Below are positions 1,100-33,248 of a stretch of 39,724 nucleotides of DNA, piece after piece. Under the pieces are notes generated by a model that did not search any database, was not told where the DNA came from, and worked only from the letters and a program-made list of their open reading frames with translations. The stretch comes from Butyrivibrio sp. (GTDB lineage: Bacteria > Bacillota > Clostridia > Lachnospirales > Lachnospiraceae): the NCBI GenBank assembly GCA_023664865.1, contig JAMPEU010000025.1, positions 1 to 39,724 of the forward strand, read 5' to 3'. How positions within the stretch are numbered: position 1 is the stretch's first letter; every line of letters begins with the position of its first letter. The translations under genes and the position numbers were made by a program.

Positions 1100-1247
1100 T
1101 AGCATGAACTCATATACTTCCATTTGAGGTCCTTGTAAAACGCCGGTACTTAGTGAAAAAGCTGTTTTGAGCTTTTGAACTTAGTACCGCTGCGATTTTA
1201 CACGGAGCGAGAGCGTACCTCAAGTGGAAGTATATGAGTTCATGCTA
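1100..1247 (-). repeat. Palindromic element, copy A (148 bases)
   Basis: A near-perfect inverted repeat: arm 1100-1130 pairs with 1217-1247 over 31 positions with one G:T pair. Inside lies a second stem (CGGTAC ... GTACCG) and a short non-symmetrical segment, ACGCTCTCGCT on the minus strand. Read on the minus strand it aligns over its length with copies at 20628-20778 and 33100-33248 and shares the core with 22070-22234. It fills the xpaC-telA gap, and the xpaC stop codon TAG (1247-1245) lies in the outermost base pairs. Its sense relative to transcription matches copy B. No open reading frame or target duplication is evident. It could be a structured RNA segment, a processing or termination site, or a small non-autonomous mobile element. 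Confidence 0.85.
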
Positions 1248-2615
1248 TTCTCGCTTAACCGTAACAAATTCCATATCATTCATCAACCCTTCTCTGGCAA
1301 GCATGGTTTTAAGCACCTGTGCGTCAGTGGTGGCATCAAATACCGTATCTTGAAAAAGGTTGTTCAAAAGCTCCGTGAATGCGTGGTTAATCGTATCCAG
1401 AGTGTTTTCTATCTCAGCTTTTGCCGCTATTATTTCGTCTCCCGGAGCGCTTACGCGGTCGAACTCTTCATATGCCTCCACCAGTTTAAGCGTGGTGGGA
1501 AGATAATAGTCCATCAGCTTGTGCATGCGGTGCATTTGTTCGGGATGTTCCCTGATGCTGCTGAATATTTCTTTTAAAAGGCTTTCTAAGCGGAATAGTT
1601 TAGTGGAAATAACTTCGCCGGGGATTTTATCATTCAGTTCCCTTAATTTGCGGATACATTCCATGCCCTCCGCCACCATTGTATTTAATTCCGTGTTCTG
1701 GTCTGCCGATATTTCGGGGGAAGGATTGCTTTCAGTTTCCTTCGTATCCTCTACAGCTTTGGAAGCAATTCGATTTTCTTCTTCCAGCCGCCTACGGTTC
1801 TCTTCCACGTCGAGATACTGCCAGTAAATGGCGTCGCTTAGCATGAAGCAGGTTTTCTGTTCGTCCAGATGTCCTTCGGGGAAAAATCCCAGATTTATCA
1901 TTTTCTGCAAATCTTTGACAATGTAGCTTTCTTTTTTGCCGCACGCCATTGCTAAGTCTTTAATATTTTTATACATCTTATGGTCGCATAACTTCACATA
2001 ACGCTCCGCACGTTTTAGACGCTTGCGCTGACTGACGCCTACGCTTATCATGCCGTATGCGAGTACAAGCAATATCAGATTTATTGCCCACCAGCCTGCG
2101 CTTAAGTGCGCTCCTGCGGCAAACATGATAAGCCTCACTAAAGTCCAAATTCCCGCAGCGCCGAGGGCGATTCCGCCGAATACCTGATACAATACGTTGG
2201 ATACGTTTCCGACCTTTTTGATTTTGAGTTTATTCTTTATTTTATCCTGTCTGGCAATCCGCGTCTGTTCCTGTATGTTGTGAGAGTCCTGCCGTAACTG
2301 CTGCCTGCGCTGTTCTTCCTGAGCCCTGCGCTGTTCGTAATTGGCGCGCTCTTCCTGCGCCCTGCGCTGTGCATAATCGGTTCGTCCTTCACCGGGCTGG
2401 CGGCTTTGATGTTCATTGGCGCGCCTTTGGTGTTCTTCTTTATCTCGTTCAGAATTAAAGTCAAGTGTGATATTTGCCCTGAAATCATCGATTGCACTAT
2501 TGACAGTCTGCGACACCAAATCATTCAATTTACTGAAATCGCCGCCCTGCAATGCTTCTGCCAGCGCGTCTTTTATCTGTTCTCCCATATTGTTTCGATT
2601 CTGATAGCCGCTCAT
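1245..2615 (-). CDS. XpaC-family membrane protein
   Basis: This 456-residue protein belongs to the XpaC family (named from 5-bromo-4-chloroindolyl phosphate hydrolysis in Bacillus; true activity unknown). An N-terminal segment is followed by a charged Gln/Arg/Glu-rich coiled coil at about 55-130 containing the repeat YAQRRAQEERA / YEQRRAQEEQR. Two membrane helices follow at about 140-168 and 171-193, then a winged-helix-like stretch (about 210-275, MYKNIKDLAMACGKKESYIV) and a helical C terminus. The start at 2615 was chosen because it is the first ATG, although no strong ribosome binding site is visible. It is the first gene of an xpaC-telA operon, a pairing common in Firmicutes. Residues 55-130 are more repetitive than the rest and may vary between strains. 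Confidence 0.82.
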   Translation of the reverse strand: MSGYQNRNNMGEQIKDALAEALQGGDFSKLNDLVSQTVNSAIDDFRANITLDFNSERDKEEHQRRANEHQSRQPGEGRTDYAQRRAQEERANYEQRRAQEEQRRQQLRQDSHNIQEQTRIARQDKIKNKLKIKKVGNVSNVLYQVFGGIALGAAGIWTLVRLIMFAAGAHLSAGWWAINLILLVLAYGMISVGVSQRKRLKRAERYVKLCDHKMYKNIKDLAMACGKKESYIVKDLQKMINLGFFPEGHLDEQKTCFMLSDAIYWQYLDVEENRRRLEEENRIASKAVEDTKETESNPSPEISADQNTELNTMVAEGMECIRKLRELNDKIPGEVISTKLFRLESLLKEIFSSIREHPEQMHRMHKLMDYYLPTTLKLVEAYEEFDRVSAPGDEIIAAKAEIENTLDTINHAFTELLNNLFQDTVFDATTDAQVLKTMLAREGLMNDMEFVTVKRE

Positions 2616-2677
2616 ACCGTCAAACCTCTTATCTTCATTGTCTGTGAAGCTTACTTAAGATTATTTTCCTGCTTAAT

Positions 2678-2706
2678 ATTATCACATATTGGATTTAGAT
2701 TAGCAA
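2678..2706 (-). promoter_or_regulatory. Candidate promoter for xpaC-telA
   Basis: On the minus strand TTGCTA (2706-2701) is followed after 17 bases by GATAAT (2683-2678), about 60 bases before the xpaC start. It is a reasonable sigma-A match with no experimental support. Confidence 0.4.
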
Positions 2707-2867
2707 TAGTTTCTTTGGCAAGCGGGCGAGAAAGTAATGGTAAAAATATGGATATGTTTATTGACAAAAAATGGAAAATTACTAATATACATAAAAAATA
2801 CATGAGATAAGTATGGATTAGAATTTTCAGATGGAGTAAGGGTAGAAAAATTTGTTAGTGGTTTTAA

Positions 2868-2896
2868 TTGAGGAAATCAGTGGAATTTGATATAAT
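2868..2896 (+). promoter_or_regulatory. Promoter for the cytosine methyltransferase gene
   Basis: TTGAGG at 2868-2873 and a perfect TATAAT at 2891-2896, separated by 17 bases. This gives a leader of about 130 bases before the ATG at 3033. The leader contains an inverted repeat near 2927-2950 that could be an operator or RNA hairpin. Confidence 0.6.
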
Positions 2897-3032
2897 AAAA
2901 ATAATGGTAAATAAAGTTTGCCTGGGAAGATAAGCCGGAATTATCTTGAATCGAAAAGAAGGAAAAATATTTCAAAAGTCCAAATAATCGGACATATGGT
3001 GTGATAGCATTATTAAAAAAAGAGGTAATCTT

Positions 3033-4079
3033 ATGTTTTATACGATTGAATTATTTGCTGGTGCAGGTGGACTTGCGTTAGGGATTGAGAAAGCAGGGTT
3101 TGAAACGCTTGGATTGATTGAGTTTGATAAAGATGCCGCTGATACGCTTAAAAGGAACAGACCTAACTGGAATGTTATTAATGATGATATTGCCAATATT
3201 TCCTGTTTGGATTTGGAGCAATATTTTAATTTAAAGAAAGGAGAACTGGATTTATTGTCAGGAGGAGCGCCCTGTCAGGCATTTTCATATGCCGGTAAAA
3301 GACTTGGATTGGAAGATGCCAGAGGAACGCTTTTTTATCATTATGCGCTATTTTTACAGAAACTGCAGCCGAAGATGTTCCTGTTTGAAAATGTAAGAGG
3401 CTTACTCACGCATGCCAATGGGAATACATATAAAACAATGTTAAATATTTTTACAAAGGCAGGATATACGATTGATAAAAAAGTATTAAATGCGTGGGAT
3501 TACGGAGTTCCACAAAAAAGGGAACGCTTGATTACAGTCGGGATTAGAAATGATTTGGTAAATAAAATTGAATATGTTTTTCCCAGACCACATGATTATA
3601 AACCGGTATTAAGGGATGTTTTATTAGATTGTCCGGATAGTCCGTATATTCCTTACGGAGATAAAAAGAAAAAGATATTTGAACTGGTTCCGGCAGGCGG
3701 ATATTGGCGAGATATAGACCCCAAAATAGCAAAAGATTATATGAAAAGCTGCTGGGATATGGAAGGTGGACGTACTGGAATTTTGCGAAGAATGAGTTTA
3801 GACGAACCATCATTGGCGGTATTGACATCACCATCCCAGAAACAAACGGAACGCTGTCATCCTTTGGAAACCAGACCATTCACCATAAGGGAAAATGCGA
3901 GATGCCAGACATTTCCGGACGAATGGGAATTTTGTGGAAATATTTCATCACAGTATAAGCAAGTAGGAAATGCAGTTCCGGTTAATTTAGCAAAGGATAT
4001 TGCAGCAGAAATATATCGTTCGCTTGAAATGCTGGAAGACAGGGGAAAAATCAGTAGACGGAAGACGTGTGTCGCATAA
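3033..4079 (+). CDS. DNA (cytosine-5-)-methyltransferase, type II, probably now an orphan
   Basis: A 348-residue C5-cytosine methyltransferase that transfers methyl from S-adenosylmethionine to cytosine in a specific DNA site. All hallmark motifs are visible: FAGAGG near residue 8 (motif I), the catalytic GGAPCQAFS with Cys81 (motif IV), ENV at 119-121 (VI), QKRER at 161-165 (VIII), RPFTIRENARCQTFPD at 281-296 (IX) and QVGNAVPVNLA at 310-320 (X). The target-recognition region (about 215-275) has the GGRTGILRRMS ... PSQKQTERCHP arrangement seen in enzymes modifying GGNCC or GGWCC sites. That specificity is inference, supported by the adjacent Eco47II-like fragment. The start has GAGGT upstream. 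The gene overlaps the endonuclease remnant and looks intact itself. Confidence 0.93.
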   Translation: MFYTIELFAGAGGLALGIEKAGFETLGLIEFDKDAADTLKRNRPNWNVINDDIANISCLDLEQYFNLKKGELDLLSGGAPCQAFSYAGKRLGLEDARGTLFYHYALFLQKLQPKMFLFENVRGLLTHANGNTYKTMLNIFTKAGYTIDKKVLNAWDYGVPQKRERLITVGIRNDLVNKIEYVFPRPHDYKPVLRDVLLDCPDSPYIPYGDKKKKIFELVPAGGYWRDIDPKIAKDYMKSCWDMEGGRTGILRRMSLDEPSLAVLTSPSQKQTERCHPLETRPFTIRENARCQTFPDEWEFCGNISSQYKQVGNAVPVNLAKDIAAEIYRSLEMLEDRGKISRRKTCVA

Positions 4080-4425
4080 AAGAATAAGGCGGGTGAGTAT
4101 TGATCAATTTTATGCAATTACAACCGGAAAAGAAGATGCCTTTTATAATATGTGTATGGTTCTTCCAAGTGTAATTGAAAGAGTGGTCAAGCAGGATGGA
4201 ACAGTCCAGATACCGCATGATACAGTATTGCACGAGTTGAAAAATATTGCAGCTATGTCTGGCGAGGAATCTGAAGATATATCAATGGCTATTGCAGTAT
4301 ATATGCTTGGGTTTAATTCATATTTAGGATTTTCCGACCTAGTAAAAACTGACAATAACAACATGGCAGATGAGAACTATTTGAAACGAATTTATATCTA
4401 TGCAAAAGGCATAGAGAAAGAATGA
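4000..4425 (+). pseudogene. C-terminal remnant of an Eco47II-like type II restriction endonuclease
   Basis: In a different frame from the methyltransferase end, the reading frame gives VDGRRVSHKRIRRVSIDQFY, then ITTGKEDAFYNMCMVLPSVIE and a helical tail to the stop at 4423-4425. From memory of the family, this resembles the C-terminal part of Eco47II-type endonucleases (about 230-240 residues). The N-terminal catalytic PD-(D/E)XK part has no counterpart upstream: the sequence there is the conserved motif X region of the methyltransferase. The simplest reading is a deletion that removed the intergenic DNA and the first half of the endonuclease, with a junction near 4030-4050. The frame is formally open from ATG 4000, giving 141 residues, but cleavage activity is not expected. 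rarA starts 7 bases after its stop. Confidence 0.75.
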
Positions 4426-4432
4426 CTACACT

Positions 4433-5755
4433 ATGGATTTATTTGAATACATGAGAAATACGAATATGGATAAGGAAGCGCCGCTTGCCGCGAGGTTAAG
4501 ACCGACTACGCTTGATGAGGTAGTGGGGCAGCAGCATATAATAGGAAAAGACAAGCTGCTTTACCGCGCTATTAAGGCGGATAAATTAAGCTCCATTATT
4601 TTCTATGGACCGCCGGGAACCGGCAAGACGACGCTCGCCAAGGTTATCGCGAATACCACCAGCGCGGAATTTACGCAGATTAACGCGACCGTAGCGGGCA
4701 AGAAGGATATGGAAGCCGTGGTGGAGCAGGCGAAAAACGTAAGCGGAATGTATGGGAAGAAAACCATACTTTTTATTGATGAAATTCACCGTTTCAATAA
4801 GGGGCAGCAGGACTATCTGCTGCCGTTTGTCGAAGACGGTACGATTATACTTATAGGCGCGACCACGGAAAACCCCTACTTTGAGGTCAACGGAGCATTG
4901 ATATCGCGTTCTATAGTTTTTGAGTTGAAACCGCTCTCAAGAGAGGACATTAAGGAATTAATCAAACGCGCCGTATATGATAAAGATAAAGGCATGGGCG
5001 CATATGACGCGGTAATTGATGATGATGCGCTGGAATTTCTGGCTGATTTATCCGGCGGTGATGCCAGACACGCACTGAATGCAGTGGAACTCGGCGTCAT
5101 GACGACTAACAGGAGCGAGGACGGCAGGATACATATTACGCTTGAAGTGGCGCAGGAGTGTATTCAGAAAAGAGTCATAAATTATGATAAGACAGGCGAT
5201 AACCACTATGATACGATTTCAGCTTTTATCAAAAGCATGCGTGGCTCTGACCCCGATGCTGCGGTATATTATCTGGGAAGAATGCTTTATGCGGGAGAAA
5301 GCGTGGCTTTTATCGCCAGAAGGATTATGATATGCGCCGCTGAAGACGTGGGAAATGCAGATCCGAATGCCCTGACGGTCGCGGTCAGCGCATCTCTTGC
5401 AGTCGAGAGAATAGGAATGCCCGAGGCGCAGATTATTCTGGCTCAGGCGGCAGCTTATGTGGCGTGTGCGCCGAAGAGCAATTCTTCCAGCAGCGCAATT
5501 TTTAAGGTTATGGAAACAGTGGAGCAGACGGGAAATCTGCCGATACCTACGCATCTTCAGGACGCGCATTATAAGGGGGCGGCAAAGCTTGGACACGGCA
5601 CGGGCTATAAGTATGCGCACGACTATCCCAACCATTATGTAGAGCAGCAATATCTGCCCTACGAACTTAACGGCAAAGAATTTTATACGCCTTCCGGCAA
5701 CGGATATGAATTAAAAATAAAGGAACATATGAAGCGTATAAAGGGATTAGAATAA
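4433..5755 (+). CDS. rarA: Replication-associated recombination protein A (RarA/MgsA), AAA+ ATPase
   Basis: This 440-residue clamp-loader-like AAA+ ATPase acts at stalled replication forks and is related to eukaryotic WRNIP1. Visible motifs are the opening RLRPTTLDEVVGQQHI, Walker A GPPGTGKT (59-66), Walker B FIDEIHRFNK (about 114-123), sensor 1 GATTENP (142-148) and the arginine-finger SRS (158-160). The C-terminal tetramerisation part contains MRGSDPDAAVYYLGRML and the late AHYKGAAKLGHGTGYKYAHD. Length is normal for the family. It begins 7 bases after the endonuclease remnant, so it may be read through from that promoter. Its stop lies within a duplicated piece of the neighbouring DUF4364 gene, so the last three codons (GLE) are partly supplied by that duplication. 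Confidence 0.96.
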   Translation: MDLFEYMRNTNMDKEAPLAARLRPTTLDEVVGQQHIIGKDKLLYRAIKADKLSSIIFYGPPGTGKTTLAKVIANTTSAEFTQINATVAGKKDMEAVVEQAKNVSGMYGKKTILFIDEIHRFNKGQQDYLLPFVEDGTIILIGATTENPYFEVNGALISRSIVFELKPLSREDIKELIKRAVYDKDKGMGAYDAVIDDDALEFLADLSGGDARHALNAVELGVMTTNRSEDGRIHITLEVAQECIQKRVINYDKTGDNHYDTISAFIKSMRGSDPDAAVYYLGRMLYAGESVAFIARRIMICAAEDVGNADPNALTVAVSASLAVERIGMPEAQIILAQAAAYVACAPKSNSSSSAIFKVMETVEQTGNLPIPTHLQDAHYKGAAKLGHGTGYKYAHDYPNHYVEQQYLPYELNGKEFYTPSGNGYELKIKEHMKRIKGLE

Positions 5756-5840
5756 TTGCTCTATTAAGCTCTGATAGACGCTGTAGCAGCGATAAACCCC
5801 GATGCGATTAGAATAATTGTTCTATTAAGCTTTGATAGAC
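5745..5840. repeat. Direct repeat: duplicated 3' end of the DUF4364 gene (2 x 35 bases)
   Basis: Positions 5745-5779 and 5806-5840 match at 33 of 35 bases, 61 bases apart. The second copy is the coding end of the minus-strand DUF4364 gene. Read in the same sense, the first copy still encodes VYQSLIEQLF and a stop, and both differences are silent. The first copy also supplies the rarA stop codon. It looks like an old local duplication of the gene tail. Confidence 0.85.
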
Positions 5841-6326
5841 CGTCTGATTCTTCTTCTGCCAGTTGTCGCATATGGCGGCGGCAGTTTCTTTGTCGGGAAC
5901 TGATAAAGTTATGTCAACCAGACGTATATTTTTCTCTATTGCCTGCAAATGCGCCTCGTATTCCCCGGAAGTGGATTTATAATAATCGGAGATAATAGAA
6001 ACCTCGTTGCGCATTTCCATTTCGTTTTCTTTATAAAAACCGTCGATTTTTTTCTTAGTGAGGGCATTGAGCCTGTTGCCAAATAGCGACAGCGTCTCTT
6101 TGCCCTCTGTGGTAATCACAAGATGCGTGCGGTTGCGCACCGTGTTGGCGGTAATCATTCCAGAGTCCGCCAATTCGGAAAATACCTGCTGCAGAGTCAG
6201 AAAGTCCATATATTCGTTTTCAAGAATAAAATCGGCGACCTGCGCTTTCGTAATGGGAAATGCGGCGCGGTCCAGCATATACAGTATGATAAGTTTGTAT
6301 AATATTAAGGTATCTTCCTTAGTCAT
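5808..6326 (-). CDS. DUF4364 family protein
   Basis: A 172-residue soluble protein recognised as DUF4364, common in Clostridia and uncharacterised. The N-terminal part (about 1-75) has the look of a winged helix (LYKLIILYMLDRAAFPITKAQVADFILE ... FSELADSGMI) with a beta-wing (RTHLVITTEGKETL), suggesting DNA binding or a regulatory role. The C-terminal part is mixed alpha/beta. It follows malic enzyme on the same strand after a 79-base gap and is probably co-transcribed with it. Its last codons are duplicated downstream at 5745-5779. Function is unknown; the winged-helix suggestion comes from sequence pattern only. Confidence 0.75.
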   Translation of the reverse strand: MTKEDTLILYKLIILYMLDRAAFPITKAQVADFILENEYMDFLTLQQVFSELADSGMITANTVRNRTHLVITTEGKETLSLFGNRLNALTKKKIDGFYKENEMEMRNEVSIISDYYKSTSGEYEAHLQAIEKNIRLVDITLSVPDKETAAAICDNWQKKNQTVYQSLIEQLF

Positions 6327-6405
6327 TTACAATTCTCCGATATATTTGCTTTCATTAATAATACTGCTTTTTAGCCTGTAAATTGGAATTTATCGCACTA
6401 TTGCA

Positions 6406-7560
6406 TCATTTACGGATATGCGATTTTACCGCCTCGGCTACTACTTCTGCAACTTTGGGGTTAAATGCCTCCGGCATAATGTTGTCTTCATTCAGTTCTT
6501 CGTCGGGAACCAGCCCTGCTATGGCATAGGCAGCGGCTAACTTCATTTCTTCCGTAATCTGCGGTGCGCGTCCTTCAAGGGCTCCTTTGAAAATGCCGGG
6601 GAAGGCCACCACGTTATTAATCTGATTAGGGAAATCAGAGCGTCCCGTGCCTACTATACGCGCTCCGGCTGCTTTTGCCGCATCGGGCATGATTTCAGGA
6701 ACCGGGTTGGACATTGCAAATATAATGGCGTCTTTATTCATCGAAGCTACCATCTCAGGAGTTACGACATTGGGCGCGGATACTCCAATGAAGATATCGG
6801 AATTTTTCATGGCATCAGCAAGCGTTCCGCTCTCGTTATCGGGATTGGTGCATTCCGCCATCTGCTGTTTCACTTTGTTCAGATTGCTTCTTGATTTGCA
6901 GACTATACCGGTGCTGTCGCACAGGATGATGTTGGAGAAACCGTAGCTTTGCAAAAGCTTGGTAATGGCGATTCCGGCGCTGCCCGCGCCGTTTACGACT
7001 ACCTTGCAGTCTTCCTTCTTTTTGCCTATTACTTTCAGGGCGTTGATGGTGCCTGCAAGCACGACTATTGCCGTACCGTGCTGGTCGTCGTGGAATACGG
7101 GTATATCCAGTGTCGCTTTTAACCTTGCTTCTATTTCAAAGCAGCGCGGCGCGCTGATATCTTCCAGATTGATGCCGCCAAAGCCCGGAGCAAGATAAGT
7201 TACCGCCTTGATGATTTCTTCCGTGTCCTGTGTATCGAGACAGATAGGAACTGCGTTGACGCCGCCGAACTCTTTGAACAAGACTGCCTTTCCTTCCATA
7301 ACCGGCATAGCGGCGTGCGGACCGATATTTCCAAGTCCAAGAACCGCGCTTCCGTCGGAAACTACGGCTATCGTATTGGATTTCCATGTATATGTGTATG
7401 CGGCATCCTTGTCTTTGGCGATTGCCTTGCAAGGCTCTGCAACGCCCGGCGTATAGGCGATTGCCAAGTCCTCTCTTGTCTTAACCGCTGTTTTGGAAAC
7501 CGTTTCGAGTTTTCCCTTCCATTCTTCGTGCATTTGAAGCGCTTTTTCTCCTGTTGTCAT
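6406..7560 (-). CDS. Malic enzyme (oxaloacetate-decarboxylating malate dehydrogenase), short bacterial form
   Basis: This 384-residue enzyme oxidatively decarboxylates L-malate to pyruvate and CO2 with NAD or NADP. Visible signatures are the N-terminal AIAYTPGVAEPC with the catalytic Tyr, the metal-binding NLEDISAPRCFEIE and HDDQHGTA, the Rossmann nucleotide loop NGAGSAGIA and the later IFAMSNPVPEI. Length fits the compact bacterial type that lacks a phosphotransacetylase domain. ATG at 7560 is preceded by GGAGG. A weak promoter, TTGTAA-N18-TAGAAT, lies at 7607-7578. Cofactor preference cannot be read safely from the sequence. DUF4364 follows on the same strand. Confidence 0.95.
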   Translation of the reverse strand: MTTGEKALQMHEEWKGKLETVSKTAVKTREDLAIAYTPGVAEPCKAIAKDKDAAYTYTWKSNTIAVVSDGSAVLGLGNIGPHAAMPVMEGKAVLFKEFGGVNAVPICLDTQDTEEIIKAVTYLAPGFGGINLEDISAPRCFEIEARLKATLDIPVFHDDQHGTAIVVLAGTINALKVIGKKKEDCKVVVNGAGSAGIAITKLLQSYGFSNIILCDSTGIVCKSRSNLNKVKQQMAECTNPDNESGTLADAMKNSDIFIGVSAPNVVTPEMVASMNKDAIIFAMSNPVPEIMPDAAKAAGARIVGTGRSDFPNQINNVVAFPGIFKGALEGRAPQITEEMKLAAAYAIAGLVPDEELNEDNIMPEAFNPKVAEVVAEAVKSHIRK

Positions 7561-9368: not shown

Positions 9369-9376
9369 AAAAACAC

Positions 9377-9405: not shown

Positions 9406-9410
9406 ACATA

Positions 9411-9744: not shown

Positions 9745-9753
9745 TTTACTTGG

Positions 9754-12248: not shown

Positions 12249-12264
12249 CAGAGAGGGTAGAGAG

Positions 12265-20627: not shown

Positions 20628-20778
20628 GCGGCATGGACTCATATGTTTCCACTTGAGGCACGCTCTCGCTCCGTGGAAAATCGCAGCGGTACTAAGTTCA
20701 AAAGCCGCTTTGCGCCTTTTTCACTAACTACCGGCGTTTTCCAAGGACCTCAAGAGGAAGCATATGAGTCCATGCCGC
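20628..20778 (+). repeat. Palindromic element, copy B (151 bases)
   Basis: Outer arms start GCGGCATGGACTCATATG (20628-20645) and end with its exact complement (20761-20778). The stem continues inward with one wobble and one mismatch. The core ACGCTCTCGCTCCGTGG and inner CGGTACTAAGTTCAAAAGC match copy D almost exactly and copy A on its minus strand. It separates the response regulator and kinase genes, reading in the same sense as their transcript. Confidence 0.87.
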
Positions 20779-20834
20779 CCAATGACTGTGGGTAGTAATA
20801 AACTTGCAGGATAAGGGAGAATGGAGAATTAGGC

Positions 20835-21995: not shown

Positions 21996-22301
21996 AGACT
22001 TCTTAATAATTATTCTGGTATCATGGTATCACAATAGGTGATTGCGAAATTCATTCTTTCATAGTGTGAGTTGTACAATATATACAAAACATAAGCAGGG
22101 TGCTCAACAGAAAATTTACTTCGTAAATTATCTGGCGCCGTCGGTACTTAACGAGGTTCTTTCGAGTTTAGTACCGTTACTGGCGACAACGCAGCGAGAG
22201 CGTGCCCTACGTTGTTTTGTATATATTGTACAACGGGACTTATTAAAAAAGTTGTTTTGTAAATACCTATTAACATCAAACAAGAAAGGAATAATTATTA
22301 T
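21996..22301. other. 306-base gap between kinase and ABC ATPase genes
   Basis: Holds two direct copies of GGTATCA (22017-22023 and 22025-22031, period 8), element C (22070-22234), and the ABC gene ribosome binding site (AGAAAGGA). The paired heptamers could be a binding site for the response regulator, but no convincing -35/-10 pair is placed beside them. Confidence 0.4.
22070..22234 (-). repeat. Palindromic element, divergent copy C (165 bases)
   Basis: A perfect 22-base outer stem (22070-22091 with 22213-22234) has a sequence unrelated to the outer stems of copies A, B and D. The interior keeps the family plan. The core ACGCTCTCGCT reads on the minus strand (22188-22204 region on plus: CAGCGAGAGCGT). 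The inner stem pairs CGGTACTTAA with TTTAGTACCG, and there is an added hairpin AATTTAC-TTC-GTAAATT. It lies between the kinase and the ABC ATPase, antisense to their direction. Confidence 0.75.
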
Positions 22302-25565: not shown

Positions 25566-25699
25566 AGGGTAAGAATATATTGAGGTTTGCTTGTACGCAT
25601 GATTTGATTATTGATTTTGGTGAAATGAAGTAGTATCTTATACAGTAGATGGTATTTACACATATTTAATATGGAATAACAGAAAGGATACTAATATCA

Positions 25700-26971
25700 A
25701 TGAATCAGAAGAAAACTTTACAAAAATTATTTAATTTTATATACGAAAGCCCGACCAGCTATCACGCGGTTGAGAACCTTGAGAAAATGCTTGATAAAGA
25801 AGGCTTTACAAGATTAGAGGAGAGGGAGTCGTGGCAGATTGAAAAAACGGGGAAATATTATGTAAATCGAAACGGTTCTTCGCTTGTCGCCTTCACCATT
25901 CCGGATAAAAAGCCGCTGGGCTTCCATATGGTCGCGGCGCACAGCGATTCACCATGCTTTAAAATAAAAGAGTCGCCTGAGATAGCGGCGGAAAATGTGT
26001 ACCTAAAGCTGAATGTGGAGAAATACGGCGGAATGATTCTTTCCACGTGGCTTGACAGGCCGCTTTCCATAGCGGGAAGAATCGTGATTAGGGAAAACGA
26101 CGGTATTGGCTGCCGCCTGGTTAATCTGGATAAGGACGCGGCAATAATCCCCAACCTTGCAATCCATATGAACAAGGATATGAATAAAGGCGTTGAATAT
26201 AATCCGCAGACGGATATGCAGCCGATTATTGGGGCAGCGGATTTTAAGGGTGGTTTTTTAAAGCAAATTGCTAAAGAGGCAGGAGTGAAAGAAAAAGAAA
26301 TTCTTGATTGCGACCTTTTTCTATACAATAGGGATAAATGCCGCCTGATAGGAATGGACGACGCTTTCATAGCGGGACCACGGCTTGATGATTTGGAGTG
26401 CGCTTTTGCGGGGATTGCCGCGCTATGCGGTGAAAAATCGGAAAACTACGTTAATATCTGCGTGGTGTTTGATAATGAAGAGGTGGGGAGCGGCACAAAG
26501 CAGGGCGCTGCATCTACATTTTTAAAGGATGCGCTTGTCAGGATATGCGACAGGCTTGGCATAGGGGCGGAAGAATACCGCTGCATGATTGCCGACAGTT
26601 TCCTTATTTCTGCGGATAACGCTCACGCGGTTCACCCAAATAATCCGGGCAAGGCTGATGCGACTAACCGCCCTATGTTAAACGGGGGGATTGTAATTAA
26701 ATACCACGGAAGCCAGCGTTACGCTACAGATGCGTATTCGGCAGCGATAATGAAGGATATCTGCCTTAGGGCTGACGTGCCTTATCAGTCATACGCCAAC
26801 CGTTCGGATATTGCGGGAGGTTCGACGCTTGGCAATATAGCAATGGCGCAGGTATCCGTAAATACGGTTGACATCGGACTGCCGCAGCTTGCCATGCACT
26901 CGGCTTTCGAGACGGCGGGCGCAAAAGACCTCGGTTATATGATAGAAGCATTTAGGACCTTTTATAAATAA
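25700..26971 (+). CDS. M18 family metallo-aminopeptidase
   Basis: A 423-residue cytosolic dinuclear zinc peptidase removing N-terminal residues, preferring acidic ones in characterised relatives. Motifs: HMVAAHSDSP with a metal-binding His, the bridging Asp in PRLDDLEC, VFDNEEVGSGT with the catalytic Glu pair, and late MHSAFETAGAKD with the final His. Length fits the bacterial ApeB-like group. AGAAAGGA lies ahead of the ATG. Its last 20 bases overlap the convergent acyltransferase gene, and the shared end forms a hairpin. Confidence 0.94.
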   Translation: MNQKKTLQKLFNFIYESPTSYHAVENLEKMLDKEGFTRLEERESWQIEKTGKYYVNRNGSSLVAFTIPDKKPLGFHMVAAHSDSPCFKIKESPEIAAENVYLKLNVEKYGGMILSTWLDRPLSIAGRIVIRENDGIGCRLVNLDKDAAIIPNLAIHMNKDMNKGVEYNPQTDMQPIIGAADFKGGFLKQIAKEAGVKEKEILDCDLFLYNRDKCRLIGMDDAFIAGPRLDDLECAFAGIAALCGEKSENYVNICVVFDNEEVGSGTKQGAASTFLKDALVRICDRLGIGAEEYRCMIADSFLISADNAHAVHPNNPGKADATNRPMLNGGIVIKYHGSQRYATDAYSAAIMKDICLRADVPYQSYANRSDIAGGSTLGNIAMAQVSVNTVDIGLPQLAMHSAFETAGAKDLGYMIEAFRTFYK

Positions 26972-28001
26972 AAGGTCCTATGAGCATGGCATAAATTTTA
27001 TCCAATATGACTGCCAAAATATAAATATAAAATACGCTGCTCAGAAAGAGCAGCAGTGTATTGGAACTGTCCATCGTGGCGCCTGCAAAATTCAACATAT
27101 ACTTATATAGAAATACATGATGCAGTAAAAAATAGGCATAAGAATGTTTTCCAATCGTGATAATCAAGCCCTTTATACGTTCGGATTTTATCCATTCCGC
27201 GACTTCCATTACAATCATATAAAGTGATACCGACACGACAAATATTACATGGTAAGGGTAAGAATGGAACTGATAGAAGTTTCTTTCCACTATGTATATG
27301 GCGATAATCAGCACAGTTCCGATTGCAGCTCCAATTCTTCTGCCAATTCTGGCCGCGTGTTGATTTTTATTCTCACGCAGCATCTCAAGCATCATGCCAA
27401 GTGTGAAATACATACTGCACATGATGGGGTTTTTCTCGATAACAATGGGAAACGGATTATAATAGAGCAGCACAACGCTCGCAATGAAAAACACGGCGGG
27501 CAGAACATACTTGCACTTGCGCATTACCACCCGATAAAGTGGGAACAGCAGATAAAGCACTACAATCACGCCCAGAAACCATTCGCCGATAAGATAAAAG
27601 GTCGGAATCCAATCACTGAAATATCCGTCCATTGCAATTACTGACAGCAGAAAATTTATTTTAGGGGCTGTCGGCATGGATTTCGCACGATAAAAGAAAT
27701 CTAAAAACGCAAAGAGGTATGCGAGCCAAAACAGGGGATAGAGTCCAAAAAATCTTTTTTTATAAAATTCTTTCAGCGAAAACTCCTCCTGCCCATAGCG
27801 ATAGATGAGCGACGCGCCCGATACCATAAAAAAACACGATACGGCAATCGGTCCCCATACAATGCGGACGATTCCCTGATAAAGCTCCACGTCCGCATTG
27901 ATTGCATATGCTTTTGCGGTATCCGAAAAGTGGAACGCCGTTACCATCAAAAAGCAGATAATGCGAATTAAGTCAAGATATAGCACTCGTTCTTTTTTCA
28001 T
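26952..28001 (-). CDS. Acyltransferase 3 family membrane protein
   Basis: An approximately 349-residue protein with about ten membrane helices. The family acylates sugars or cell-surface polymers. The conserved opening KERVLYLDLIRIICFLMVTAFHFSD carries the characteristic Arg and the catalytic-type His in the first helix. I start it at ATG 28001; a TTG at 28013 would add four residues, but the AAAGGGG sequence is only one base away from it, so it is less likely. A promoter, TTGATT-N17-TATATT, lies at 28103-28075. The substrate is not deducible, since no polysaccharide cluster adjoins it. Confidence 0.88.
   Translation of the reverse strand: MKKERVLYLDLIRIICFLMVTAFHFSDTAKAYAINADVELYQGIVRIVWGPIAVSCFFMVSGASLIYRYGQEEFSLKEFYKKRFFGLYPLFWLAYLFAFLDFFYRAKSMPTAPKINFLLSVIAMDGYFSDWIPTFYLIGEWFLGVIVVLYLLFPLYRVVMRKCKYVLPAVFFIASVVLLYYNPFPIVIEKNPIMCSMYFTLGMMLEMLRENKNQHAARIGRRIGAAIGTVLIIAIYIVERNFYQFHSYPYHVIFVVSVSLYMIVMEVAEWIKSERIKGLIITIGKHSYAYFLLHHVFLYKYMLNFAGATMDSSNTLLLFLSSVFYIYILAVILDKIYAMLIGPFIYKRS
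26953..26980. terminator. Palindrome within the overlapping ends of two convergent genes
   Basis: A perfect 12-base-pair stem, 26953-26964 with 26969-26980, loop TAAA. It contains the last codons of both the M18 peptidase and the acyltransferase, encoding the mirrored ends RTFYK and IYKRS. It may act as a bidirectional terminator, although there is no clean T-run on either side. Confidence 0.5.
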
Positions 28002-28074
28002 TGTCGGATTCAAACCCCTTTCACAACATATGGACGGAGTTTCTCACAAAAAGCGGCTTTCTCCGATTGGAACA

Positions 28075-28103
28075 AATATAACATATTTTTATGCCATAAT
28101 CAA
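28075..28103 (-). promoter_or_regulatory. Candidate promoter for the acyltransferase gene
   Basis: Minus-strand TTGATT (28103-28098), 17-base spacer, TATATT (28080-28075). Confidence 0.5.
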
Positions 28104-28163
28104 CTATATGGCAATTATCAAACCTGTGGGGCGAAAGATTTAATGTATATCGCGACTTTTTTC

Positions 28164-30572
28164 TCAAACAAATGAATTATATATAATAGTTTCAACTTCG
28201 CCATTCTTATTCAATATCGCATAGCAGAAAAGCGGAGGAGCCATTTCGCCGTAAGCATATCCTTCATCACCGTTGTCTAATACATATGTAAGAGTTGTGA
28301 TATCCAGCCAGTCGTCTATTAGAATATGCTCTTCAAAACACTCCTTTGCCGTATAAACAGACTCCGATATTTCCATCAATGATGTAATGCGGGTATCTTT
28401 TGCTATCTTAATATTTCCAGTGTACAAATCATCGAGTAAAAACTCCATTGACTCTGTGATAAAATCATAATCCGGAATAGAGCAGCATATGGGATAATAT
28501 TCATCGCCTGAACTGCTTCCAAAATCGAAGGAAACTTTTGTCTGTATATAGTAGAGGTTTCCATCATTTAAGCAATAAATAGAATAGAGCCCTGCTGGAA
28601 ACTCTTCTTTGTCTAACTTTTCTCTCAAGACAAATTCCCTATCTGAAATTGTAAAATGGTCACCTATCTGCAGTTTATCAAAATCATTGCAAAAAACGGA
28701 ATATGCCAGCTGTAAACTCCCGTCTACTGCATAGTATTCGCCCATATCCTCAAATGGAGAATTTATCAATAACCATACAGGTTGTGCATATGCGCTGAAT
28801 TCAAGCGATAGCTGGGTATTGTCCGCTATAAAATTTTCTTGAGTTTCTTCTTTATATGTACATTCGTCAACAAACTGCATCTTTCCATTGGGAAGCAGTT
28901 CAAAATGAATTCCAAATTGTATGGGTGCATTTTCTGAGGTTAAAATCTCCCATTCTTTGGATAAGTCAAGTTTGCCAACTGCTGTGTCTGCATCTTCGTC
29001 ACAGCACACAGAAACGGTCAGCACAGGAAAGCCAGCGGATATGTCGGCACATTCCTGAAGATTGGGGTGCATAAGAGTTTGTGCGCTTGCGCTTATGCCT
29101 ATATCGGCTTCTACATCTATTGCGTCTAAGCAGCCAAAAAGTATAAGAGTCGGCTCAGTCCTAAGCATGGCGCTTGCGCTGCAGTTTACTTCCAGATTTG
29201 GTTTTTCGACAAAGATATGGTGTTCAAAATTCCTGACTCCACAATTCTCATCATACGATACAGATACTTCTACAGGAAGCTCTGCGGAAAATGAAATACT
29301 TCCGTCTACCGATAAAACAATGAAAATCTGTATATCTGCACTTACAACTCCGTTTCCAAGAGGGACAGGCGTTTTAAATAAACGGATTTTTTTCTCTTTT
29401 TCTGTCTTGATATTACCGCTGAATGTCGCGTGAGCGTCTACCGCAGCTTCGGCATATCTTAATCTGCCCCATGAAAAGTCAATCTGTCCGCCGATATACA
29501 TTTTATCAATATCTATCTCTGCGCTATATTCATCGTCCGGATTTATTTTCTCCTCGATAGGAAGCGGATAAAATTCTCCTGTATCGTTATCAGTAATACG
29601 TATTTCTAAGTATTTTTCACCGTTTTTCTTTTGCGTGGAAAGTGATAACTTATATCCTTTACTGTCCACTTCTCCTGAAAGTATGGCGGCGTTTATCATA
29701 TGCGCATCTTTCTGTCGGTACGTCGGATTATTGATGGCTTCTGTGCTTTTATTCGGTTCATAGTAATTTATGATATCATCAAAAGTCAGTTCCGTAATAT
29801 CCGATACGGTAAGGGAGTCCACGACCTTGCTTAGTTCGACTGTTTTTAATGATAATGTTCCGTCTGTGCCTATTGCGCTTATTTCCCTTGCTAGTTTCAA
29901 TTTGGTATTTTTTTGCTCAAAAACAATGACGTCGCCTATTTCGCAAGAATTAAGCACAGAGTCTGTAACTGCAATTTTAAAGCCGTCGGTATCGCATTGT
30001 AATATATCTGTGGAAGATAGTTCTGTCACGCCGTCTTGATATACCACATTGCTATAATCGTCTTGCCAGAATTCACTGAAATATAGACTATATAAAGTCT
30101 CTAAAACCAGCTCACACTTTTCTTGGGAAAATCCTTTCTTGAGGTCTTTCTTTTCAATGAGTCCATGTTCTATGCCTAACTCAATATAATTATCGTCTGT
30201 TATTGCATCGTTGGTATGCAGATAAATGCGCACTTTACCTTCACAGAGCGTTTTCATTGCCGTTACGATGATAAATTGTCCGGACGCATACTTGTCCCCC
30301 TCAAAGTCAGAGGAGACATTCAGTACGTTATGCTCTACAGCTGCCTGTATATAGGCAAAATGCGGATTTTCAGAATTAACGTCGCTAAAATATGGCGTTT
30401 CGCCAGTATATTCATTTATTCCAAAGCGTTCTCCCAGCATTTCGAGCCACTCATAGCGGGTTACGCCGTCGGGGACTTCCGTATTTCTCCCGGTAAAGAA
30501 TATAACGCCAATAATGATAAGAACCGCAGATAAAGCTGTGGCTATATAAATATATATTTTTTTGTTATTCAT
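28164..30572 (-). CDS. Membrane-anchored protein with SLH-like N-terminal region, function unknown
   Basis: An 802-residue protein. A membrane helix at about 5-27 is followed by a region resembling S-layer homology repeats (VTRYEWLEMLGERF ... PYFSDVNSENPHFAYIQAAV ... YASGQFIIVTAMKTL). Unlike typical SLH proteins it is anchored by a helix and lacks a cleavable signal. The rest (about 190-802) is beta-rich and exported, with repeated segments of the form DILQCDTDGFKIAV ... EIGDVIVFEQ near 190-225 that recur as DKLQIGDHFTIS near 635. It lies 13 bases downstream of the lipoprotein gene and is clearly co-transcribed with it. An envelope role is likely; no enzyme motif is seen. Confidence 0.7.
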   Translation of the reverse strand: MNNKKIYIYIATALSAVLIIIGVIFFTGRNTEVPDGVTRYEWLEMLGERFGINEYTGETPYFSDVNSENPHFAYIQAAVEHNVLNVSSDFEGDKYASGQFIIVTAMKTLCEGKVRIYLHTNDAITDDNYIELGIEHGLIEKKDLKKGFSQEKCELVLETLYSLYFSEFWQDDYSNVVYQDGVTELSSTDILQCDTDGFKIAVTDSVLNSCEIGDVIVFEQKNTKLKLAREISAIGTDGTLSLKTVELSKVVDSLTVSDITELTFDDIINYYEPNKSTEAINNPTYRQKDAHMINAAILSGEVDSKGYKLSLSTQKKNGEKYLEIRITDNDTGEFYPLPIEEKINPDDEYSAEIDIDKMYIGGQIDFSWGRLRYAEAAVDAHATFSGNIKTEKEKKIRLFKTPVPLGNGVVSADIQIFIVLSVDGSISFSAELPVEVSVSYDENCGVRNFEHHIFVEKPNLEVNCSASAMLRTEPTLILFGCLDAIDVEADIGISASAQTLMHPNLQECADISAGFPVLTVSVCCDEDADTAVGKLDLSKEWEILTSENAPIQFGIHFELLPNGKMQFVDECTYKEETQENFIADNTQLSLEFSAYAQPVWLLINSPFEDMGEYYAVDGSLQLAYSVFCNDFDKLQIGDHFTISDREFVLREKLDKEEFPAGLYSIYCLNDGNLYYIQTKVSFDFGSSSGDEYYPICCSIPDYDFITESMEFLLDDLYTGNIKIAKDTRITSLMEISESVYTAKECFEEHILIDDWLDITTLTYVLDNGDEGYAYGEMAPPLFCYAILNKNGEVETIIYNSFV

Positions 30573-30585
30573 TTGTGCTATTTTC

Positions 30586-31836
30586 CTATTCCATCAACGT
30601 AAAATATATAAATCCTTGTCTTGTGCTTGCTTCCAACCTGTCTTTTTCCAGCTTTAACTCACCTGTAATGCTGTCTTTATCATTGCTAATGCGGATTTTT
30701 GCGGGTTCTTCAATCCAGTCGCCTGCTTCCAACTGCAATTTAAGTTCTTCTCTGTTCCATGTGCCGGATAACTCATAACTACCTTCAGCAAATGCAAAAA
30801 CAGCCTTCACGCTGCCATCGTCATTTACTTCTGAAATCTGCAGTTCTGCCGTTTCTTCCCTAAATCCGTTTATATAGGTTCCGCTCCAATTTCCTATGAT
30901 ATCCGTTGAAACTATTTGAGAGGTTGTATTATTTTCCGAGCCTTGCCAGCCCTCGCCGTCTCGATAGTCATAAACAATTAGAGATTCCATTGCAATCGTA
31001 ACTTTGGATTTACTGACCTGATAACTGCATCGGTATAACTGCCTGCTTCCTTTTGATTCCGCCGTTTGTTCCTCTATTTTAAAATCCGAGATTTCCTGTT
31101 CATTTATGAGAATGGTCTGTTTTGTGTCACTTATCGGAAGTTCGGTTTCTGTCAACTTAGAAATTAAATCATTTTCTGTAACGTTTAAAGCATATTCTTC
31201 TTTCATGGATACAGTAAAATAATCTTGTGAAATAAAGGAATCGAATTTCCATTCCTGATTGAAAGTAAATAAGACTTTTATTTTGCCATCGGCTCTTTCC
31301 AATTTATCATCAAGAGTTAGAGAAATAACAATCTGGTCTGTTTTTTGCTCAAGATTGGTGTACTGTTCTTCTATTTTCGCATTTAATAAATTATCTTGAG
31401 CAATCTGCCATTCTTCATTATCTATATTTACTATTTGCCCCAAGAGTAAAGTCGATAGACTGCTTTCTTCAACGCCTTTTAATGGTGTCATAACCCATTC
31501 GTCTTTGGCGGAAACATCTATTCTGTCTAATATCCAGCCCGTTTTATCATATAAGCCATAGGTCAGAACGATATCCTTTTGACAGGAAGCTTCATCATTA
31601 CTTGTTACAACCGTACACCAGACAGTGTCAGTTTTCTGCTCTTTTTCTGTCTGACGTTTTTCGATTATGATTTCATCAATTTGCTCATCATTTTTCAAAA
31701 ATTGAAATTTAGTGTCAGATTCCAAGTCAAGCTTTATTTGTTCCTCATCTGCTGCTTTTTTCCCGCAGGCGGATAAACAGAGCATACTGATTATTAGTAC
31801 ACTCGCCAATACAGTGCATCTTATCATGTGTTTCAT
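30586..31836 (-). CDS. Multidomain lipoprotein of unknown function
   Basis: A 416-residue lipoprotein: MKHMIRCTVLASVLIISMLC is followed by the lipobox LSAC, giving a lipidated Cys24. The mature part appears to contain about three similar beta-rich modules. Each ends in a hydrophobic strand pair with Trp, such as LTYGLYDKTGWILDRIDV, VLFTFNQEWKFDSFIS and LIVYDYRDGEGWQGS. A C-terminal barrel-like domain starts at IIGNWSGTYI and runs to the end. A strong ribosome binding site (AAAGGAG) precedes the ATG. It is the first gene of a two-gene envelope operon and divergent from a small ribbon-helix-helix-like gene. I do not recognise a named family. Confidence 0.72.
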   Translation of the reverse strand: MKHMIRCTVLASVLIISMLCLSACGKKAADEEQIKLDLESDTKFQFLKNDEQIDEIIIEKRQTEKEQKTDTVWCTVVTSNDEASCQKDIVLTYGLYDKTGWILDRIDVSAKDEWVMTPLKGVEESSLSTLLLGQIVNIDNEEWQIAQDNLLNAKIEEQYTNLEQKTDQIVISLTLDDKLERADGKIKVLFTFNQEWKFDSFISQDYFTVSMKEEYALNVTENDLISKLTETELPISDTKQTILINEQEISDFKIEEQTAESKGSRQLYRCSYQVSKSKVTIAMESLIVYDYRDGEGWQGSENNTTSQIVSTDIIGNWSGTYINGFREETAELQISEVNDDGSVKAVFAFAEGSYELSGTWNREELKLQLEAGDWIEEPAKIRISNDKDSITGELKLEKDRLEASTRQGFIYFTLME

Positions 31837-31880
31837 TTTTATAAACTAACTCCTTTCATTTTTTGAATATGTCATTTTTT

Positions 31881-31935
31881 ATAACATATATTTATAACAT
31901 ATTTTAATGGTTATTTCAATATTAAAATATATGTT
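31881..31935. promoter_or_regulatory. AT-rich direct and inverted repeats between divergent genes
   Basis: ATAACATAT occurs at 31881-31889 and 31894-31902. The segment AACATATTTTAAT (31896-31908) is repeated inverted at 31921-31935 with a two-base insertion. The cluster lies in the 136-base gap between the lipoprotein gene and the small ribbon-helix-helix-like gene, where a repressor of either would bind. Confidence 0.4.
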
Positions 31936-31972
31936 AATCAGAAAATCAAAAATGAAAAGTTGAGGTGATTTT

Positions 31973-32170
31973 ATGTCTGATAACGATAAGTTGATAATCA
32001 GACCTAAAAAATACAAAGGAAATGACGGACACAAAACTTTTTCTATTAGAATAAAAGAAGAACTTGTTGAAAATATTGATGCTATTTCTGTCAAAACCGG
32101 ACACAGCCGCAATGAATTAATTGGCATGTTTCTTGATTATGCTGTTAAACATTGTAAAATTGAGGATTAA
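31973..32170 (+). CDS. Small ribbon-helix-helix-like (CopG/Arc type) protein
   Basis: A 65-residue protein. A short basic tail (LIIRPKKYKG) leads to the pattern KTFSIRIKEELVENIDAISV, then TGHSRNELIGMFLDYAVKHC: one beta strand followed by two helices with the N-S-R-N-type turn, as in CopG/Arc dimers. Such proteins bind DNA as dimers and often repress their own operon or act as antitoxins. No toxin gene adjoins it, so a plain regulator is more likely. GAGGTG is suitably placed before the ATG. Repeats at 31881-31935 may be its operator, and a terminator follows at once. Confidence 0.7.
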   Translation: MSDNDKLIIRPKKYKGNDGHKTFSIRIKEELVENIDAISVKTGHSRNELIGMFLDYAVKHCKIED

Positions 32171-32173
32171 AAA

Positions 32174-32207
32174 AGCAGGAGTCACATTTTTGGGCGTGAT
32201 TCCTGCT
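32174..32207. terminator. Bidirectional terminator
   Basis: A 12-base-pair stem, AGCAGGAGTCAC (32174-32185) with GTGATTCCTGCT (32196-32207), one G:T pair, 10-base loop. There is an A-run on the left and a TTTCTTATTTATTT run on the right. It can stop both the small plus-strand gene and the convergent AraC-type gene. Confidence 0.82.
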
Positions 32208-32214
32208 TTCTTAT

Positions 32215-33009
32215 TTATTTGCTGCTGTCAATCGCCTTATGCAGTCCGGAGAACATCTCGTCCATTCGGCTACATTCTTTAAGACTGACGGTAGTGACAT
32301 GGAGCGACAGCGGTATTTCCCTGTCCTCATATGTGAAAGTATTGTTATTCATATCAAGGATTTTCGTCGCAATCTGTTCTGCATAGGCGGCATCGCTGCT
32401 CGCTGTCAGCATACAGAATTCATCGCCTCCGATACGGAATACTATGTCGTCTTCGCCGGAGCATGCCGTCATACGCCGTATCTGCTCTAAAATGGCTAAA
32501 TCCCCTGCCTTTCTTGATATTTCATTAATTGATATCATGTGTTTGATATCACTGGTAACAAAAAAGCAATCCTTTCTTTCCTTAAATAAATCATATAACT
32601 CACTGATATCCACAGATTTTTTCTGCATAATATAATTATCTCCTTTCCAACAAGGTGCATGTAACCTTGGAAACATCTCCGTGAATTTCGTGTGGCGAAA
32701 TTCGGAGGGTTTACAGTTCCAGACTTGTTCAAATGCGCGCGCAAATGATTCGTGTGTGCTATAACCACATTCAAGCGCAATGTCCAAAATGGACGTTTTG
32801 GGAGACTGCGACAATTTTCTTGCCGCCAGCATCATTCTTCTGCGGACAATGTACTCATGCACGGAAATATTATGCACACTGCGAAATAGTTTTTCGATAG
32901 TGGATTTTGAGCAGAAACAGCTTGAGGCAACGTCCTCAGTCCTGATTTCATCGCATAGGTGCAGTTCTATATATTCAAGCGCCGCCATTAAAAGCTCTAT
33001 CTTGTGCAT
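32215..33009 (-). CDS. AraC-type regulator fused to a shortened GGDEF-like domain
   Basis: The start at 33009 (MHKIELLMAALEYIE) was chosen because GAAGGTGG precedes it; the open frame reaches further upstream, but that part has no ribosome binding site and runs into repeat element D. The product is 264 residues. Residues 1-105 are an AraC/XylS double helix-turn-helix (SSCFCSKSTIEKLFR, then ILDIALECGYSTHESFARAF and the CKPSEFR end). Residues about 135-264 resemble a diguanylate-cyclase fold: SDIKHMISINEISRKAGD with a metal-type Asp and FRIGGDEFCML with an intact GGDEF signature. The first part of a standard GGDEF domain is missing, so it may bind a nucleotide without making cyclic di-GMP. Confidence 0.83.
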   Translation of the reverse strand: MHKIELLMAALEYIELHLCDEIRTEDVASSCFCSKSTIEKLFRSVHNISVHEYIVRRRMMLAARKLSQSPKTSILDIALECGYSTHESFARAFEQVWNCKPSEFRHTKFTEMFPRLHAPCWKGDNYIMQKKSVDISELYDLFKERKDCFFVTSDIKHMISINEISRKAGDLAILEQIRRMTACSGEDDIVFRIGGDEFCMLTASSDAAYAEQIATKILDMNNNTFTYEDREIPLSLHVTTVSLKECSRMDEMFSGLHKAIDSSK

Positions 33010-33039
33010 AATCCACCTTCTTTTCGATATCGTAAAAAG

Positions 33040-33045
33040 ATTATA
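33040..33045 (-). promoter_or_regulatory. -10 element for the AraC-type gene
   Basis: A perfect minus-strand TATAAT (33045-33040) about 30 bases before the start. The -35 region at the right distance (AAACCT) is poor, which would fit an activator-dependent promoter. Confidence 0.4.
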
Positions 33046-33099
33046 ACATAGCTGCGGGGGTGAGGTTTGATATTTTGGGTAAAGATTGGTTATAAGATA

Positions 33100-33248
33100 C
33101 AACATGTACTCATATGTTTCCACTTGAGGTACGCTCTCGCTCCGTGGAAAATCGCAGCGGTACTAAGTTCAAAAGCTAAAAGGCAGCTTTTGAACTAACT
33201 ACCGGCGTTTTCCAAGGACCTCAAGAGGAAACATATGAGTCCATGTTG
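33100..33248 (+). repeat. Palindromic element, copy D (149 bases)
   Basis: The outer stem from CAACATG to CATGTTG pairs over about 30 positions with one mismatch near the end and one inside. The core GTACGCTCTCGCTCCG and inner hairpin TTCAAAAGCT ... AGCTTTTGAA are clear. It is closest to copy B; both keep CCGGCGTTTTCCAAGGACCTC. It lies between divergent genes, in the same sense as csoR. Confidence 0.87.

Follow-up and report, generated by a model that had tools for sequence, protein, structure and literature searches.

A mobile, MITE-like family of palindromes in Lachnospiraceae with a shared asymmetric hairpin

Introduction

The bcr1 and other bcr repeats of the Bacillus cereus group are structured, dispersed and presumed mobile elements of about 155 bp that belong to one species group, while ERIC, NEMIS/Correia and YPAL are imperfect palindromic miniature inverted-repeat transposable elements (MITEs) that lie between genes in many copies and have the sequence of their stem as family signature. 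Here we describe a family of palindromes that invites comparison with them, four copies of which (A to D) lie in a 39,724-nt stretch of a Butyrivibrio sp. genome (assembly GCA_023664865.1, contig JAMPEU010000025.1, positions 1 to 39,724; hereafter, the window). The likeness to the bcr repeats lies in size, structure, dispersal and presumed mobility. Unlike in ERIC, NEMIS/Correia and YPAL, the signature here is an unpaired, one-sided core together with one inner stem (P3), and the remaining stems are free to vary.

The BOX, RUP and SPRITE repeats of Streptococcus pneumoniae are (PMC3049150) small interspersed repeats with strong predicted structure and presumed past proliferation, much like the present family, and BOX and RUP also share its terminal inverted repeats. 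The same source reports them from pneumococcus, to a lesser extent from S. mitis and only very seldom from other streptococci, whereas the one module described here occurs, with stem sequences of its own, in 122 of 298 sampled genera. REPs measure 20–40 bp and REP/REPIN elements carry GTAG or CGTC tags (PMC3733652, PMC3116915); they too are high-copy palindromes, from which our family is set apart by its length of about 150–600 bp. No curated covariance model of a structured RNA family in Rfam matched at the gathering threshold in the window, and nine loci gave matches only far below gathering scores. Literature searches returned the core string only in five papers unrelated by title and, for MITE plus Lachnospiraceae, only three unrelated papers. 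An earlier note on the window had also named no matching family. The family, a large one of small mobile DNA elements found in bacteria of gut and rumen, has apparently not been described before.

Results

One asymmetric hairpin with variable stems

Read on the strand that carries the core, each element consists of the outer stem (P1), an 11-nt bulge (the core, CGCT-NN-CGCT), a 2-bp helix, P2, a 2-nt bulge (AR), P3 (CGGTACT/AGTRCCG), an A-A mismatch, P4 and an apical part, which often closes in a loop such as AAAATAC or AAAGGAC. The sequences of P1, P2 and P4 vary with paired change over 60–76 genomes. In an anchor-based count, 104 of 126 elements could be parsed, which left 76 at one per genome and none from the window's genome; only elements with P3's 3′ strand and the mismatch's 3′ A could be parsed, and the conservation of these two there is by choice, but there was no selection for the 5′ A of the mismatch (present in 76/76), P1, P2, P4 or the 2-bp helix. 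With these anchors, which are independent of the fold, Watson-Crick pairing is found at the first pair of P2 in all 76 genomes (C-G in 37, T-A in 39) and at pairs 2 and 3 of P4 in 70 and 65 of them, with four pair types each. At pairs 7 and 8 of P2 it is found in 38 of 76 each, and at pairs 4 and 5 of P4, which form an internal loop, in just 23 and 22. The 2-nt bulge reads AG in 59 genomes and AA in 17.

An alignment of 60 copies, made by sequence (MAFFT) from 58 of these 76 elements with a short apical part plus two window copies, yielded a 31-pair structure chosen on the same alignment. Within it, 83.3% of the cells are paired as against 62.2% after shuffling, 442 cells are double-changed as against 162.5, and the covariation score of 0.527 compares with 0.178 for shuffled data and at most 0.164 when the structure is slid. 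Pairs changed on both sides number 24 against 22.4 in shuffles, 41 of 500 of which reach that value. A column-pair scan of this alignment ranks the same pairs at the top, with some chance pairs further down.

Paired change is tolerated even in P3, the conserved inner stem, since copies in the window's genome have TGG/CCA for CGG/CCG or GTAGT/ACTAC for GTACT/AGTAC (L049, L276, L282, L291, L306, L308). In one sub-family a second hairpin, AAGACCACTTGCAGTGGTCT, takes the place of P3's 3′ half. This sub-family comprises nine of the 89 entries from the window's genome (L041, L054, L055, L059, L277, L281, L287, L288, L307) and seven of the 52 from a sister genome, the metagenome-assembled genome (MAG) NALB_7961_5, whose flank matches are 85–95% identical to our own; because there are many copies in both genomes, the sub-family must have multiplied in this form.

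Conservation of the core beyond the search pattern

Most copies were collected via the exact core and CGGTACT, which inflates core conservation in those counts. As a control, loci were fetched by their terminal repeats instead, which yielded 36 matches, 34 of them distinct, within the detection range of the model. Among these 34 end-selected copies, CGGTACT and the A-A mismatch are each intact in 32; core identity averages 87%, ACGCTNNCGCT is found in 23, and the two middle bases are the most variable. The core is CGCT-NN-CGCT, conserved though not invariant; the counts for the sister genome are 85 model matches and 52 exact cores. A complementary core on the opposite arm was present in 0/89 entries from the window's genome, 0/52 from the sister and 1/125 others (1/266 in total), and the inner pattern of the 141 own and sister entries is forward in 109, neither way in 32 and reversed in none.

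Terminal repeats, target duplications and empty sites

In the window's genome and its sister, complete copies terminate in GTTACTRTTCACAG and its inverse. Exact 8-bp direct repeats, read by eye, flank seven cases, three of them full copies (ATGCCGTG, ATTACTTG, TTTTGGCT) and four internally deleted derivatives (ATCTCCTT, GATTATTG, AAGAAAAT, TATCAAAT). In other genera the terminal repeat is TAGGYAATTGCGAAAC, and direct repeats of about 9–13 bp, some imperfect, were read by eye at 8 of 14 bounded elements, which measure 201–256 and 520–573 bp. Two unrelated terminal repeats, GTTACTRTTCACAG and TAGGYAATTGCGAAAC, are thus found around the same asymmetric hairpin, and both kinds occur in the window's genome, the second at copy C and at an L346 copy (clear at one end); copies A, B and D show a terminal-repeat motif on one side only. 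With two unrelated terminal repeats enclosing one asymmetric hairpin, the family is not one of plain MITEs.

Scars of about 37–71 bp are left where the hairpin has been deleted from between both terminal repeats, and several keep intact target duplications (L332, L333, L336, L341, L387, L390, L396). Comparison with the sister genome, which the earlier note had proposed, revealed three empty orthologous sites, those of copy C, one L042 copy and one L346 copy, and a short remnant at another site. The sister's orthologue of copy A is truncated and that of copy B is full with a different apical hairpin; no counterpart of the copy D site was located there. Orthologous sites were reached via element copies, so the numbers of shared and empty sites are not rates.

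With neighbouring genes taken as plain open frames rather than gene-caller output, 123 of 155 copies lie between two open frames without a frame of at least 100 aa across the copy, the four orientations of the flanking frames numbering 44, 39, 22 and 18; six of the 155 overlap a frame of at least 100 aa. The elements themselves carry no gene: the L384 element contains no frame of at least 50 aa, and in L385 no frame exceeds 64 aa.

Several candidate partners and origins were rejected. A neighbour protein shared as cargo or transposase was sought among the neighbours, the largest clusters of which (12 and 11 loci) are sensor- and ABC-transporter-like by eye, without a family search. A 1.45-kb interval between second-type repeats holds a LysR-type-looking gene between elements, and a 2.1-kb interval on contig C91 holds membrane/ABC-like frames and no recognisable transposase. 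The idea, suggested by copy C, that the arms are mirrored target flanks was dropped, the excess of inverted flanks being small and fading with window size.

Family size and distribution

In the window's genome (3.82 Mb, 180 contigs), the exact 11-mer core ACGCTCTCGCT is present 88 times and its reversed control not at all; blastn of copy D against this genome gave 84 matches, both strands of the same palindromes included. The collection of 89 own-genome entries includes a contig-end duplicate (L037 of L036), a chance match in coding DNA (L299) and a fragment (L285). The core followed by CGGTACT is present in 36 of 397 genomes of the family (34 of 334 genera, the window's genome included; reversed control, 0). 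A sample of 391 genomes across the class gave 3 with this string, each a member of that family and one of them our own. Matches among those listed include Roseburia inulinivorans, Eisenbergiella tayi, Oribacterium and bins called Butyrivibrio and Robinsoniella, and, beyond Lachnospiraceae, Anaerovibrio lipolyticus and bins called Schwartzia, Selenomonadaceae, Veillonellaceae and Mogibacterium.

A covariance-model search, likewise proposed earlier and run with a model of the 60 copies, matched, at E up to 0.001, 123 of 299 Lachnospiraceae genomes (122 of 298 genera). Across the phylum it matched 4 of 299, all Lachnospiraceae and including our own; these scans scored 13 candidates per genome, so that per-genome copy numbers in them are lower bounds. 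In 12 chosen genomes, the model found 134 matches in E. tayi, 127 in Oribacterium sinus, 100 and 62 in Selenomonadaceae bins, 85 each in the sister genome (G776) and the Schwartzia bin, 76 in the same-genus genome G060, 68 in the Veillonellaceae bin, 40 in R. inulinivorans, 31 in the L212 bin, 21 in Anaerovibrio and 9 in the Mogibacterium bin. By blastn, copy D had no match in phage and plasmid collections.

Nine pattern matches in viral contigs all came without the element's partner strand and were judged to be chance, as were genome-contig matches in coding DNA (L106, L109, L119, L120, L141, L156, L168), which were excluded before the 76-genome count. Metagenome bins with Bacteroidales names (L130, L164, L176, L203, a Muribaculaceae bin, and L212, a Bacteroides bin) hold typical Lachnospiraceae-like elements and are probably mislabelled or mixed. 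On contig C59 of genome G110 (125297–125730), three model matches on one strand have a regular, tandem-like spacing of 164 bp.

Drift and pairing of the stems

Across 15 orthologous sites of the window's genome and its sister, 423 P1 pairs are unchanged, 44 show paired double changes, 53 one-sided changes (14 G-T, 20 A-C and 19 of other kinds), 15 double changes of other kinds and 8 gaps; three of the site pairs (L253/L025, L206/L013, L328/L018) may be separate insertions or converted copies. Divergence is 0.175 and 0.154 in P1, 0.167 and 0.21 in the flanks and 0.135 in P2–P4, and the core divergence of 0/165 follows from the choice of exact cores. One orthologous sister copy, at another site, has the same arms around an inverted interior. 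The arms of 20 E. tayi copies, about 50–145 bp long, are 94.3% paired within the copy (5.7% mismatch), while between copies the 14 best of 171 comparisons are 71–90% identical and 56 of the 171 lie above all shuffled scores. The 5′ arm of the outer stem in these copies (L432–L451) is poor in A and shows a strand skew (A 11%, T 27%, C 34%, G 28%).

In yeast, template switching homogenises the arms of inverted repeats and inverts the spacer between them (PMC8604942). Arm drift at the flank rate, kept complementarity and spacer inversion are what template switching would give; drift with kept pairing fits it as well as selection. The earlier note had seen paired change around a conserved one-sided core in the four window copies, which is real and very strong across 60–76 genomes, and had argued that neutral decay would not keep pairing; that argument does not follow, since template switching homogenises inverted-repeat arms. 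Template switching gives no reason for the one-sided bulge, the conserved mismatch and the inner order, which points to selection on the module. The note's proposal of selection on a folded RNA or hairpin DNA accordingly survives in part: selection is the best reading of the conserved unpaired positions and the kept asymmetry, and the paired stems by themselves fit template switching equally well. Because individual copies decay, such selection would act most simply at the level of spread.

Mispairs on the core strand provide a test between strands. G-T exceeds A-C in P2 (37 vs 13) and in the P1 of E. tayi (44 vs 23), and falls below it in P4 (12 vs 15) and in the P1 of other genera (60 vs 81), the window's genome (31 vs 66) and its sister (17 vs 40). 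The outcome is mixed, with no consistent strand preference, and folded RNA is therefore not favoured over folded DNA.

The four copies in the window

Direct inspection confirmed the four palindromes of the earlier note, about 148–165 bp each, with their arms, core and paired differences (Table 1). The inner CGGTAC/GTACCG stem that it had assigned to all of them holds for A and C, which have the full CGGTACT/AGTACCG; in B and D a C-C mismatch comes after CGGTA/TACCG. The folding energies of A, B and D as single-stranded DNA are -50.3, -49.7 and -49.3 kcal/mol (z -14.2, -10.7 and -15.2), and that of copy C with its whole outer arm is -40.9 kcal/mol (z -8.6 against shuffled sequences), superseding a fold with the outer arm cut that gave z -4.3.

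Table 1. Coordinates of the palindromic elements and their parts in the window.
Feature	Position	Strand	Description
Copy A	1078..1247	-	Outer stem 1101-1247, core 1206-1216
Copy A terminal-repeat motif	1078-1091		GTTACTATTCATAG; single side, opposite end merges into the adjoining gene's end
Copy B	20628..20798	+	Outer stem 20628-20778, core 20660-20670
Copy B terminal-repeat-like sequence	20784-20798		GACTGTGGGTAGTAA; right side only
Copy C	22035..22269	-	Core 22193-22203; outer stem unlike A/B/D; additional hairpin in one arm
Copy C ends	22035-22049; 22269		TAGGTGATTGCGAAA at 22035-22049, decayed partner ending ACCTA at 22269; read as second terminal-repeat group
Copy D	33097..33269	+	Outer stem 33100-33248, core 33131-33141
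Copy D terminal-repeat-like sequence	33255-33269		GACCATGAATAGTAT; right side only
Copy D core	33131..33141	+	ACGCTCTCGCT; unpaired, one-sided, 11 nt; family pattern CGCT-NN-CGCT
Copy D inner module	33142..33225	+	2-bp helix, P2, 2-nt bulge AG, P3, A-A mismatch, P4, apical loop; from covariation and fold

Directly after copy D, at 33305–33335, lies ATACCCTATGGGGGTATAT, with open frames at 33429 and 33805 downstream of it; we take it to resemble a copper-repressor operator.

Discussion

We hold with high confidence that the family is mobile. It is MITE-like by this mobility, and the new part is the shared folded module. The elements are small, non-autonomous and gene-free, and have terminal inverted repeats and, in a minority of copies, a target site duplication. 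AT-richness, named among MITE characteristics in PMC3049150, is absent from the 5′ arms of E. tayi (62% G+C), and we treat it as descriptive rather than strict. For the earlier note, a known MITE with target duplications and no covariation beyond descent would have spoken against its proposal: terminal inverted repeats, target duplications and empty sites are indeed found on part of the copies, but covariation is strong and the family is not a plain MITE.

The account we lean towards is that these are non-autonomous, MITE-like palindromes of about 150–600 bp, devoid of genes, that would be mobilised in trans and carry a conserved hairpin needed for their spread. They would insert, at least in part with a short target duplication, by machinery acting in trans, and would settle mostly between genes in either orientation. 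The hairpin module, as folded DNA or RNA, would be needed in cis, so that mainly copies that keep it multiply; template switching during replication would keep the long arms paired as their sequence drifts and occasionally invert the interior, and deletion would leave the short scars. With moderate confidence, we infer that the module serves mobility.

Several observations weigh against this account. Duplications are found in a minority of copies: a script needing both ends retrieved five, with 0, 4, 4, 7 and 8 mismatches in the 8-bp flanks, so that four of five have no exact duplication (the L042 case among them differs by one indel), and L335, L340 and L345 are without a clear one. The mean longest direct repeat in 30-nt flanks is 3.81 against 3.23 for shuffled pairs (sd 0.23), a modest excess. 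Many sites are common to the sister genome, fifteen of them with an exact-core copy in both. No transposon with either terminal repeat plus a transposase was seen at 36 motif places in the window's genome (with the sequence around 14 regions) or at places in six other genomes, among the matches listed. The exact 11-mer core is retained in just 6 of the 34 end-selected copies and is far from invariant, and part of P3 is swapped for another hairpin in 16 of 141 entries, so the full P3 is not strictly needed.

How far do other explanations account for the same data? If the elements were a structured non-coding RNA family with mobile ends, whose transcribed module binds protein or RNA or processes the host transcript, selection would act on the RNA fold. 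The covariation is of RNA-family quality, unpaired positions are conserved, one P3 pair is T-G in 14 of 60 copies, and G-T is in excess in P2 and in the P1 of E. tayi. Selection of this kind should favour G-U on one strand, and here stems and genomes disagree, with no such excess in P4, the other P1 sets or the orthologous one-sided changes; orientation to the adjoining frames is about even and Rfam has no match, and we consider an RNA family unlikely. Plain MITEs, in which the interior is passenger DNA, pairing is purely a by-product of template switching and the core reflects common descent, would bring the terminal repeats, target duplications, empty sites and scars, and agree with a P1 that drifts near the flank rate, one inverted interior and an exact core that decays in many copies. 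They appear improbable, however, given that the 5′ strand of P3, CGCT-NN-CGCT and the A-A mismatch are for the most part retained, end-selected copies included, across genomes that differ in P1, P2 and P4 and within either of two unrelated terminal repeats; a symmetrised one-sided core, also to be expected from template switching, is seen in a single entry of 266.

We give equally little credence to a host-used site, such as a terminator, an mRNA-end or a chromosome-architecture element kept by the host at each locus. The elements are mostly intergenic, very frequent and persistent at many orthologous sites, but they have no clear orientation preference, and in the sister genome copies are absent, truncated or reduced to a remnant. 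A substrate for single-strand recombination like attC, with the folded strand cut by a recombinase, would share the folded hairpin, the conserved extrahelical nucleotides and the variable stem sequence; ends with target duplications suggest ordinary insertion instead, no common neighbouring protein stood out, and this is the least credible explanation, a very improbable one.

Beyond the account we lean towards, a more tentative and on the whole doubtful proposal is that the hairpin is an undescribed nucleic-acid module whose folded strand a dedicated factor would read, and which serves elements with different terminal repeats as a common ticket to spread. Strong covariation by itself is no proof of RNA, and the hundreds of paired changes make the family a natural experiment on selection for folding versus neutral homogenisation of arms. 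An abundant repeat of a major gut and rumen family, unnamed in Rfam and in the literature searched, would then owe its mobility to an internal folded structure and not to its ends alone, and the defined module would be a bait for the factor that moves or reads the element.

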